DNA of 64,000 nucleotides from Monosiga brevicollis MX1 (Eukaryota > Opisthokonta > Choanoflagellata > Craspedida > Salpingoecidae): NCBI RefSeq assembly GCF_000002865.3, contig NW_001865042.1, positions 1,532,207 to 1,596,206 of the forward strand, given 5' to 3'. Numbering within the stretch: the stretch's first letter is position 1; the number at the start of each line of letters is the position of its first letter. This document shows, one piece after another, positions 29,301-33,666 of the stretch. Made by a program: the position numbers and the translations under genes. The notes beneath the pieces were generated by a model that was not told the origin of the DNA, did not search any database, and worked only from the letters and a program-made list of their open reading frames with translations.

Positions 29301-31125
29301 TACCAAGTGCGCGTACCTGCCTTTGCTTGTTGTTTCTCGAGCCAAAAACCCTGAAGTCGTCTCTCGATAGTTGTGCTTTCTCGCTCGAGGTCCGTCTCAG
29401 GGGCTCATGCGCTCGCGACTGTTGGGTGTTGAGCTTAGGCGTTGACCATGCAGACGGAGAAGGGCCCCATGGACGCGGTGACGGGCGCGGCCATGTACAC
29501 ACTCAATGCTGACACATTGCTGCGTGAGCGAGTGGACTACCAAACCGTTGAGGTGACGGCACGTCTTTCGGACGGCACGACCATATCTACCACATGCCTT
29601 GACTGTGATACCATCAGTCAGGTTACGGCGAAGCTCCGGCGACACCACGAGTCTGAGGTTGAAAAGACGGTGCTGTCGGAGCTGATTGATGGCGTGCTGC
29701 GTGAGGACGGCAGTGGGCGCATCTTGCAAGACGTAGATGAAACTTCTTTGGTGACAGCCCGCAGTGTCCAGTTGAACACCTTGCGTCATTACGGACTTGT
29801 TCGAGCTGTGAGCTGCACCATTTTGAGTCGTCAAGCCTTTGAGGCCGATCTTGCCGCGCAAAGCGGGCGGCGTCCAAACAAGCGGCGCTTTACTCGGGGC
29901 TCAGTGTCCCAGACGTCTGATGGTGCGCAGGCTACCCTGGCGCAGTGGCACTTGGTCAAGACAGAGACTGAGGCTGCTGCCAACAAGATGCCCTCGGAGG
30001 TCTTCTTGACCTACCTGATGACGGTCAAAATGACGGTGCAACCTTTTGTTGAGAAGCTGCTAGATGCCATGTTCAACGCAAAAGCTTATCCTGTGGTGGT
30101 CAAGCGCGTTTTTGATCTGTTGGACCGGTTGGCTGGCGAACAAGGCATGACAGACCCCGAGGTTCTGCATGTGTGGAAGAATAACGCCGTCACGCTTCGT
30201 TTCTGGATCAACCTGATCAAGAATCCCGAATTTCTCTTTGAGGTGGACAAGAGTTTGGCTGTCAATTCTTGTCTCAGCACCGTTGCTCAGGTGGTCATGG
30301 ACGCTTCGTCAACCTCGGAGCAGCAGCTCGGCAAGCACTCGCCTGCCAATAAGCACCTTTACCGGACAGAGGTTGCCGCTTACAAGAACAAGGTACACCA
30401 CCAGCATGAGCCTGACGTGGGACGTGATGTTTTTTAGCTGTTTTTCATCCTTTTTGTCTTCAGACGCACTCGCCGCACTTGCCTACTATTGTCTGCGCGT
30501 ACGCTCACTCCTCTTTCTTATTTGGCTTGGGGTTTAGATTCAAGAGTATTATGCCTCTGTCCATGACCAAGAGCCGGTTGAAAACGAAGCGCTGCGCCGC
30601 GCTTTTGAGGAGGCTACCAGTGATGCCGATCTGCCATCAGCCGCTGCCGCTCTTCAGGCACTGGCTGAGTATGGGCAACGGCATCAGGAGGGCTTGCAGG
30701 TTAGTCTGTGGACGATGACGGAGCGCCAGCAGCACATGCTGTGCACATCACGACGCTAGCTGACAGTGGTGATAACATGTTATTAGACACACATGCGAGA
30801 CCATGGTCACGTCGACATGGCTGCTGATCTCGGCCAGTTGTTGACCTTTTATAAACAAGCGGCCGATCAACCGTTTGAAGAGCACCATGGGAGTGATTCG
30901 AGTTTGCAGACGGGCACAGTGAGTGAGGCCCCAACCGACTACCTGACCATTCGCGGCAGCCAAATCATTGACGAGGATCTGTTTGACCTCAGCCGAGCTC
31001 AGGCGGAGGAAGAGGATGAGGCGCAGCGGTGCGTGGCCCGTGCATCAAAAATTGCGTTTGCATTTGTGTGATGGTGCTGCTTCTTGGTTGACAGCAAAGC
31101 TCATATCGTGATGTGTGTCGCATGA
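23328..31125 (+). CDS. PLXN: Plexin receptor (Sema-PSI-IPT-TM-RasGAP)
   Basis: Single-pass receptor; animal plexins bind semaphorins and switch off Rap/Ras through a cytoplasmic GAP domain. Sixteen exons: 23328-24053, 24199-24385, 24423-24693, 24818-24905, 25017-25145, 25237-25380, 25460-25561, 25707-25903, 26044-26279, 26359-26598, 26749-28731, 28888-29306, 29454-30392, 30538-30699, 30787-31028 and 31095-31125 (2031 aa). Order: signal anchor, Cys-rich N-terminus, divergent Sema domain ending near GHSNGTVLQ, three PSI modules (NPSCGWC, CREPCGWC, GFDCGWC), at least four IPT/TIG repeats, a TM at about residue 1360, and a juxtamembrane helix. The GAP domain has both arginine motifs (LLLRRTESVAEKLL and LRFWINLIKNP) and is interrupted by the Rho-binding ubiquitin-like fold (EKGPMDAVTG ... 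LDCDTISQV). The exon 2/3 junction (37-base intron) is the weakest call. Confidence 0.94.
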
Positions 31126-31417: not shown

Positions 31418-31897
31418 TTATAAAAGGTCTAGGCAATTGGTGAAGGAGTCTGCTTCAACCTTGCTTGAGCCCCTCACTGCGAGGAGGGGGGTTGTGAATC
31501 CTATTGCCCATTGGTTGATGGTCAAGTCAAGGCATGCCAGGTTGATGAGGGGGAGGGGGGAGAGAGAGACAGAGGACTGGGTCCAAAGAGTCACCTTGGG
31601 GCTCGGAGCTTTTGGAGCGCTGCTCCCGCTGGCTGAGCCGCTCCCGGGAGCGCGCGTGCTCTGACTGGCATTCTTAGCCGCAACTGAGGCATCCCCAAAG
31701 GCCTCGCGGGCCACCTTGAGGGTCTCGGCAATTTTCGGGAGCACCCGCTTGGGCCCTGCCGACACGATTCCTCGCAAGTTGAATCAGCTAACAAGCGACC
31801 CATGAATGGAGAAACCCAAGTGGTCAGCAGACGCACCGATAAACAGGCAGGCTCCCGCGACGGAGATGAGCACAATCTCGCCAACTCCAAATGGCAT
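31418..31897 (-). CDS. tatA: TatA/Hcf106-like protein translocase subunit
   Basis: Small twin-arginine-translocase pore-type subunit. Exon 1 runs 31897-31837 and exon 2 begins at 31755; the intron is 81 bases (donor GTGCGT, acceptor GGCAG). The joined start has the TatA layout: a polar glutamate near the start of a short TM helix (GVGEIVLISVAGACLFI), the hinge and FGP-like turn (FIGPKRVLP), then an amphipathic helix (KIAETLKVAREAFGDAS) and a Ser/Ala/Pro-rich tail. If exon 2 reads through, the stop is at 31418 (132 aa). If a donor at 31594 is used, the tail is shorter or different. The ATG lies three codons after a possible CAG acceptor, so an upstream exon with a mitochondrial presequence may exist; I could not define one. 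It is convergent with the plexin, about 290 bases away. Confidence 0.78.
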
Positions 31898-32195
31898 GTT
31901 GATCTGCGGCGGGATGCAGCGAGCGTCAAGATTAGCGCACGGCAAGCGACGACCGTATGCTGAAGCATCATGCTGGGACGGTGTAGAGCCCCACCTGTTT
32001 GAGCGGTCTCCCACTTGCACACGAACAGGATGACACGGCTCAAGGACCTGTACACCACCGCCACACACGCCCCGTTAACACACGGCTGCAAGTCACCTCT
32101 CAAAGTCACTCCCTCTCTGCCAAAAAGCTCCAAAACCGCGAAATTGAGAGAACAAATCGAAAAAGAAAAAACATAACGAAATCACCACGAAAGAC

Positions 32196-32261
<66 letters not shown>

Positions 32262-32516
32262 TGTGTGTGTGTGTCTGTGTCTGTGTGTGGTGGATTTGAA
32301 TGACGGCTGATGTCGGGCGTTCGGTCGCCGGTCGAGGTGGGGTTAGAGAAAGGATGACGCTGGCACGGCGCAAGGGTGTGTTGAAGAAAAGTTGACAGGT
32401 TTAGAATTCACAGGATGGCAGGCGGTCTGGCTGCTTGCACGTGCACGAGAAAGAAAGCAAGAGAAAGACAACCCGAGCGAGTTTTGAGGCACCGGTCGCC
32501 GCAGAGAGTCTGTTGT
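31898..32516. other. Intergenic region between TatA-like and PH-domain genes
   Basis: Contains the (GT)n run at 32199-32288. It may hide a 5' coding exon of the TatA-like gene: a basic, ATG-ATG-initiated stretch (MMLQHTVVACRALILTLAAS) lies at about 31968-31900 on the minus strand, but in a different frame. Confidence 0.45.
32199..32288. repeat. (GT)n microsatellite
   Basis: About 90 bases of GT repeat with a few CTGT interruptions at the 3' end. Confidence 0.97.
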
Positions 32517-33666
32517 CTACTGGGCAGCTTGGGACTTGAGCCATTCTTGATGTTCACGCTCTTGACGCTCGGCTTCTTCGCGCTCGGCGCGCTCCATCTC
32601 TGCGAAAAAATCATCCTCATCCTCCGAAACATCACCCTCTGCAACCTCCGGCTCTGGGTCAGCTGCCGGGGTGCTTTCTTCAGCAGCTTCTTTCTCCAGC
32701 TCAGCAGCGGCCTGCTTCTGTGCCTGCTTCTGTGCTTCACGCTCAGCCAGGAAAGCGAGTCGCTCCTCCTCTTGACGTCGCTCCTCTTCTTCTTCCATCT
32801 CACGGAGCAGGCGCACGTCCTCATCCTCCTCAAAGTCTTGTGCCTCCTCTTCGGGCTGCCCAGTCTTGCGCAGCGCTGCCCATCGGGCATTGTCAATGGC
32901 AGCGCCATCAATTTCGCCATCGCCACCCCGTGATCGAGCTAAACAAACGGCGAGAAAGAGACACCTGGTCAGCTACTACACCGTGCTCGACTCCAGGCAA
33001 CCCACGAGAGCCCGAGCTCGCAGAAGCGTAGCCAGCTCAGGAACCCATTCCGGATAGATGGCGCAAGTCCCATTCGATTCTCGCTGCCGTGCGAGCAATT
33101 AAAAAAACAAAAAAAAAATAAGATGCAGGCTACGACGTACTGTTTTCGACTGTCACGTCGGCCATGAGCGCGTTGAGGTCGAGGGACAGACGCTGCTGCA
33201 AAACGCGCTGCGAGTTGCCACTGCCCTGAGAAGCCAAAGACTGCGTGTCCCCATTGGCGGCAGCAGCGGCGGCGTCACGACTGGAGGTGGCTGCCCGCTT
33301 CAGTGCAAGTACCCATTGGGTGGCTTGGTCTACCTGATTTGCATCTGTGGCCAAGGTGATGGTGCGCGAACCCTGAGCGCGAGGCGTTTGAATGCTGAAG
33401 GTCCCGGGCTTCTTGGCCGGGCAGATGACAGCATCGCGGAGCGTACAAGAGCCGCGAAACAGGCGGCCCTCATAATACTCGAGTCGCGATTCACGAGACA
33501 CTGGGTCCTGCTTCAGCACAAACCAGCGCAGCTTGGTCGAGCGAATCAGTCCCTTGGCCAACTTGGACTTGGACAGGTAGCCCTCGCGCAAAATCAACCA
33601 GTCACGCGTCTCCAGCGGCCACTGCAGGCCCAGCGACGCCGACAAACTGGCCTCTGCCTTGGCCAT
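32517..33666 (-). CDS. PH-domain protein with acidic coiled-coil tail
   Basis: Two exons, 33666-33141 and 32938-32517, give 315 aa. The N-terminal PH domain begins at about residue 27 (REGYLSKSKLAKGL) and runs through KLRWFVLKQD, SRLEYYEGRL and GTFSIQTP to the invariant C-terminal-helix tryptophan in QATQWVLALKRA. The basic beta1-beta2 loop (KSKLAKGLIRSTKLR) is compatible with phosphoinositide binding. An Ala/Ser/Gln-rich linker follows, then about 110 residues of Glu/Arg-rich helix (EEEEERRQEEERLAFLAERE). A membrane-recruited adaptor is the simplest reading; no enzyme domain is seen. The gene is divergent from the FERM-domain gene. I cannot name an orthologue. Confidence 0.87.

Follow-up and report, generated by a model that had tools for sequence, protein, structure and literature searches.

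In fungal and animal mitochondria, the folded Rieske protein is inserted by Bcs1. A divergent, mtDNA-encoded TatC is found as the only Tat component in Naegleria and Oscarella, the tatC of the latter having reportedly been described by Pett and Lavrov. Plant mitochondria, as described in PMC5855863 and PMC6251230, contain a TatBC system that pairs a nuclear-encoded TatB-type protein with a mtDNA-encoded TatC, have no inner-membrane Bcs1 and carry a Tat-type signal in the Rieske protein. The plant work further places the nearest Bcs1 relative in the outer membrane and reports that loss of mitochondrial TatB is lethal, while alteration of the Tat signal blocks Rieske assembly; Chlamydomonas seems to be without both Tat and Bcs1 (PMC5855863). 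In the jakobid Andalucia godoyi, the genes for TatA and TatC reside in the mtDNA and that for TatB alone in the nucleus; no BCS1 was detected there according to the available text of PMC7050145, which also mentions Bcs1-domain proteins in Naegleria. Petru 2018 (PMC6251230), as far as its available text goes, restricts mitochondrial TatA to jakobids, cryptists, ochrophytes and Ancoracysta, always mtDNA-encoded, and nuclear TatB to plants, stramenopiles and cryptists; the absence of nuclear TatA is called a mystery there. That text lists neither protein for opisthokonts, and the literature searched contained no report of a nuclear TatA or TatB in this group. TatC together with one A/B protein may suffice for a Tat system, according to parts of PMC3097184.

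Here we describe a candidate nuclear gene for such an A/B protein in the choanoflagellate Monosiga brevicollis MX1, found in a stretch of 64,000 nucleotides (the window; contig NW_001865042.1, positions 1,532,207 to 1,596,206). The proposed arrangement resembles that of plants in its nuclear TatB-type partner, its mtDNA-encoded TatC, the Tat-type signal in its Rieske protein and the lack of a detected Bcs1. It differs from the plant system in belonging to an opisthokont, in the size of the product (about 74-87 residues), in its short conserved helix and in having no visible presequence. Andalucia likewise combines A/B-type subunits with TatC; in M. brevicollis, by contrast, a single A/B protein turned up, encoded in the nucleus. 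Naegleria and Oscarella share the divergent mtDNA TatC, whereas M. brevicollis has a candidate partner for it and, unlike Naegleria, yielded no Bcs1.

Gene structure and predicted product

The candidate gene lies on the minus strand, with an ATG at 31897 and a spliced product that begins MPFGVGEIVLISVAGACLFIGPKRVLPKIAETLKVAREAF. The coding part of exon 1 (31837..31897, 61 nt, minus strand) encodes MPFGVGEIVLISVAGACLFI and the first base of a Gly codon, thus covering the very short N-terminus, Glu7 and a single hydrophobic helix. It is followed by intron 1 (31756..31836, 81 nt, minus strand), a GT-AG intron in phase 1 (GTGCGT...CGGCAG) in which a CTGAT branch-like motif can be seen by eye. The position of its acceptor appears to match that in a metagenomic protein discussed below. 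Exon 2 (31595..31755, minus strand) continues with (G)GPKRVLPKIAETLKVAREAFGDASVAAK and encodes the hinge, a helix and a Ser/Gly/Pro-rich tail ending in APSPK. The spliced product reads MPFGVGEIVLISVAGACLFIGPKRVLPKIAETLKVAREAFGDASVAAKNASQSTRAPGSGSASGSSAPKAPSPK, and when no second intron is removed the frame stays open for 132 residues to a stop at 31418. A sequence-only reading of the locus had proposed an intron-bearing nuclear gene with this intron and this 132-residue frame; both were recovered here, although a second donor at 31594 suggests a shorter protein.

This probable intron 2 (31501..31594, minus strand) starts at AAG|GTGACT, with its first base at 31594, and is pyrimidine-rich. Because a GT donor is here combined with a pyrimidine tract, exon 2 probably ends at 31595, predicting a protein of about 74-87 residues. 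The acceptor AATAG|GATTC, one of 10 candidates enumerated, would lead to a possible but uncertain last coding exon (31474..31500, minus strand) that reads DSQPPSSQ followed by a stop; three of the 10 acceptors give products of 90-117 residues. Upstream of the start, no in-frame ATG that could add a presequence is available without splicing. Allowing one intron and counting only extensions of at least 12 residues gave five options, all from an ATG at 32174 and with 32-57 extra residues, none of which is supported. We infer that the gene is expressed.

Relationship to the TatA/B family

The N-terminal layout agrees with the Tat A/B pattern, comprising a short N-terminus, Glu7, one helix and a G-P hinge (MPFGVGE(7)IVLI...IGPKR.LP). 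The sequence-only reading had gone further and described a full TatA signature. While the Tat-type N-terminus stands, that wider description does not: the hinge, F-G in TatA, is here I-G-P and contains one inserted residue, the form seen in proteobacterial TatB, and the helix after the hinge shows no amphipathicity clearly above chance in either frame. The hydrophobic moment of 0.393 was equalled or exceeded by 1,035 of 10,000 shuffles, and that of 0.313 for the second frame by 2,559 of 10,000. Moreover, the PF02416 match predicted by that reading, which had itself named its absence as a refutation of the proposal, was not obtained for the 132-, 74- or 48-residue product, nor exon by exon across the genome.

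Other comparisons point to the family. With the 48-residue core as query, NCBIfam (18,950 models) listed Tat A/B/E subunits and nothing else at E<=10 (E 0.0077-0.083), in four families: PRK14857 (16.6 bits, E 0.0077), TIGR01410 tatB (13.8 bits), PRK14861 (13.4 bits) and TIGR01411 tatAE (12.5 bits), every match falling far below the curated cut-offs of 53.9-77 bits. All three families listed for the 74-residue product were again Tat, below cut-off, as were three of four for an 82-residue product and one of two for the 132-residue product; the remaining family was in both cases an FEA1-related lipoprotein (E 8.5 and 6.2, respectively). A weak TIGR01410 match on another contig, C18 (E 0.14), contains two stops and was rejected as chance. 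The best PDB match is the chloroplast-type TatA 7b7o (E 0.9), where FG.G...E and LLFGPKK-LP-I resemble FGVGE...LFIGPKRVLPKI; this is a plastid protein, and its F-G corresponds to I-G plus one inserted residue here.

Our own profiles were based on Pseudomonadota, with 37 sequences for TatA and 35 for TatB. With HMMER, the product scored 12.9 bits against TatB and 0.2 bits against TatA. Taking sequences without a reported match as lower, scores as high were reached against the TatB profile by 0 of 5,000 full and 2 of 5,000 block shuffles (best 18.5 bits), against the combined profile by 6 of 5,000 of either kind, and against the TatA profile by 379 and 636 of 5,000, respectively. Profile-profile alignment with hhalign gave probabilities of 92-94% for TatB (E 1.5e-7 to 6.3e-7, as a single comparison), 7-10% for TatA and 92-94% for the combined profile. 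The product's score was out of reach for all 400 block shuffles, both against the TatB alignment (32.7; best shuffle 22.2) and against the combined profile (31.4; best shuffle 27.6), with a single combined-profile shuffle exceeding 50% probability. Taken at the level of its translated sequence, the product thus probably belongs to the TatA/B family.

Assignment to one paralogue is less clear-cut. The I-G-P hinge, the Glu near the start and the better scores against proteobacterial TatB profiles are TatB traits. The order in NCBIfam is opposite to that of our own profiles, TatA there outscoring TatB by a small margin (16.6 and 13.8 bits, respectively). TatB is described with a longer matrix helix (parts of PMC6251230); the conserved stretch here ends near residue 48, where a Ser/Gly/Pro-rich sequence takes over. 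Since hinge and proteobacterial scores favour TatB, while size and NCBIfam order favour TatA, we leave the paralogue at the A/B level. A nuclear TatA/B-family subunit is the safe description, whereas the name TatA is not secured.

A metagenomic homologue

One homologue was found, a metagenomic protein of 112 residues (P0001; E 5e-3, one of four candidates from 5.77 billion proteins). It is identical at 19 of 20 residues to the exon 2 core GPKRVLPKIAETLKVAREAF, before which it has no membrane helix and reads MVCCNDDCTRSNRRA instead. Its residues AG would be encoded by a GCAG|GG acceptor identical to the one in the window, and after ...SVK the protein reads VREH, fitting an AAG|GTR AGR donor after the same Lys. 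Judged from its protein sequence, P0001 is apparently a gene caller's read-through of introns at the same two positions, and its source is probably a eukaryote in the metagenome. Neither a two-sequence-profile search nor a longer query revealed any protein beyond P0001, and among viral contigs the 38 stretches that fitted a search pattern included no relative.

The spliced product was also ranked against 44,049 distinct hypothetical ORFs of the window with zero or one intron. It came first with the TatB HMM (12.2 bits, E 0.29), the next distinct ATG reaching 9.8 bits. With the combined and TatA HMMs, the best product from ATG 31897 was a different splice form, at ranks 6 and 62, respectively. 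Among 628 window ORFs that have a hydrophobic stretch at the N-terminus (a subset of 1,482, limited to six per ATG), the highest hhalign score against the TatB alignment was 20.2. We consider the gene almost certainly real.

The mtDNA-encoded TatC

The same assembly contains a 76,568-bp mtDNA (contig C57) with a tatC of 234 residues under translation table 4, in agreement with the 76.6 kb and 234 residues given in the available part of PMC7027106. The encoded protein matches PF00902 (E 5.1e-20, 79.2 bits over profile positions 1-208), in support of the sequence-only reading, which had noted that some mitochondrial genomes retain tatC, reportedly those of choanoflagellates among them. At 22 positions compared with 77 alphaproteobacterial sequences, mostly from Bradyrhizobium and its kin, TatC retains H12, E15, F68, L99, E103, T208, PPD209-211 and E227 (E. 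coli numbering); twin arginines are bound by E15 and E103. It is changed at R17, P48, F94 (to Y), Y126, E/Q170 and Q215. Naegleria TatC, which according to parts of PMC6251230 does not complement E. coli, is also without E170 and F94; as a non-complementing TatC shares some of the losses, we regard these residues as mixed evidence. A tatA in the mtDNA was considered and rejected, PF02416 finding nothing across the whole assembly. The nuclear product is a likely partner of this TatC. Upstream of tatC, a frame of 166 residues (L001:666-1166 on C57) looks by reading like ribosomal protein S13.

Bcs1 and the Rieske protein

The Bcs1-specific models PF08740 and PF25426 gave no candidates in the M. 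brevicollis assembly, a result that shows little taken alone, the controls being prokaryotic and unable to give a signal. The ATPase region of yeast Bcs1, used as a query, gave 18 genome matches at E<=0.1, each of which we read as another AAA-type protein. Named by their reading frames, these are i-AAA and m-AAA proteases, CDC48, AFG2, NVL and proteasome ATPases, together with katanin-type, ATAD1-type and peroxin-like AAA proteins and midasin. One match reaches residue 146 of the 189-residue query and the others at most residue 127, leaving the Bcs1-specific C-terminal part unmatched. In the PDB, the same query gave 195 bits for mouse Bcs1 and at most 104 bits for other AAA proteins (best 60 of 277 matches); an ordinary Bcs1 orthologue should therefore have ranked first. 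The genome likewise had no match to a degenerate pattern representing the Walker motif of the Bcs1 type. All of these genome searches concern one assembly.

The Rieske protein is encoded on contig C50 (L008:1219-2067) and contains YSRRAFTYLMGAGG, including SRRAFTYL, before its membrane helix. In yeast, the Rieske residues D139, D145, E201 and D210 are described as complementary to Bcs1 (available text of PMC12219900). M. brevicollis retains E201 and has H, E and N in place of D139, D145 and D210, respectively. As E at position 145 also occurs in the mammalian sequences compared, and yeast Rip1 mutants with single charge reversals at such Bcs1 contacts are described in the available source text as growing normally, these changes are a hint only. 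RR motifs in Rieske proteins do not track the presence of Tat, and the Rieske fusions of Petru 2018 did not depend on Tat, as the accessible portion of PMC6251230 has it. The failure to find Bcs1 strengthens the case for Rieske as a Tat cargo; on balance this assignment is plausible, with slightly more doubt than confidence.

Proposed role and alternative explanations

The spliced frame, the family-level relationship, the homologue, the mtDNA tatC, the missing Bcs1 and the RR motif in Rieske together support a two-part Tat system. In the explanation that we favour with some confidence, the gene encodes a TatA/B-family subunit, TatB-leaning in its predicted hinge and TatA-like in size, that works with TatC to export folded Rieske in place of Bcs1. 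The protein would be imported into mitochondria although no presequence was seen; we would guess at an internal import signal placed behind the helix, an arrangement that Bcs1 itself shows. It would span the inner membrane with one helix, the short N-terminus facing the intermembrane space and a basic helix lying on the side of the matrix. There it would pair with TatC and move folded cargo, chiefly the Rieske protein, out of the matrix.

A single helix with a basic helix behind it is the build of many small inner-membrane proteins, and the product might be a real, conserved single-span protein outside the Tat family, with a GPK.LP hinge and Glu that arose by convergence. The missing Pfam match, the weak scores in NCBIfam, PDB (E 0.9) and TatA HMMER (0.2 bits) and the unremarkable amphipathicity all fit such a protein. 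We nevertheless think it unlikely, given that NCBIfam listed only Tat families, four in number, for the core, that none of 400 shuffles reached the hhalign score and that the assembly's own mtDNA encodes TatC. An artefact of picking one splice among many, with no gene at all, would accord with the TatB HMM E-value of only 0.29 in the window-wide enumeration; with P0001 identical at 19 of 20 residues in a match that sets in precisely at the exon 2 boundary, and hhalign above all 400 shuffles, we find this very hard to credit.

A further alternative accepts a genuine Tat A/B relic that works with TatC and assigns it to another cargo or to a non-translocating TatBC-like complex. The loss from TatC of several residues conserved in bacteria is consistent with this, and Petru 2018 could not show Tat dependence of Rieske signals (available portion of PMC6251230). 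Chlamydomonas, moreover, appears to manage without either machinery, according to parts of PMC5855863, so that a missing Bcs1 is no proof of Tat use. Against it, Bcs1 was not found in M. brevicollis and SRRxF is kept in its Rieske protein, and we judge this alternative improbable, slightly more so than convergence.

Export of Rieske by an A/B-TatC pair, if true, would answer how Rieske crosses the M. brevicollis inner membrane, its insertion being otherwise unexplained with no Bcs1 found. The nuclear partner would also explain why tatC persists in the mtDNA of choanoflagellates and perhaps of oscarellid sponges. Andalucia, plants and Monosiga on one side and Naegleria on the other suggest a wider proposal, which we offer tentatively and hold somewhat doubtful: choanoflagellates kept a working two-part mitochondrial Tat with a single bifunctional A/B subunit that moved to the nucleus, Bcs1 was lost since Tat still inserts folded Rieske, and it is the presence of an A/B partner, and not of TatC by itself, that predicts the loss of Bcs1 in eukaryotes generally. 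The question of Tat versus Bcs1 would thereby become testable in a culturable member of the sister group of animals.

Genomic setting

The assembly comprises 39.47 Mb in 57 contigs, and the contig with the gene exceeds 1.5 Mb. The convergent neighbour on the plus strand (29439..30437) encodes the cytoplasmic region of a plexin (PF08337, E 1.6e-69; PF20170, E 2.5e-16), a eukaryotic gene that we do not count as part of the Tat system. Bacterial contamination, against which the earlier reading had already invoked eukaryotic flanking genes and the intron, is rejected on the strength of this neighbour, the long contig and the introns. The gene looks single copy in M. brevicollis: a search with the spliced query recovers both of its exons, with E 0.09 for the match that follows. 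Upstream, a Glu/Arg-rich, coiled-coil-like frame with no Pfam match occupies 32517-32972 on the minus strand, and a long TG microsatellite lies at 32200-32290, between the upstream neighbour and the 5' region of the gene.
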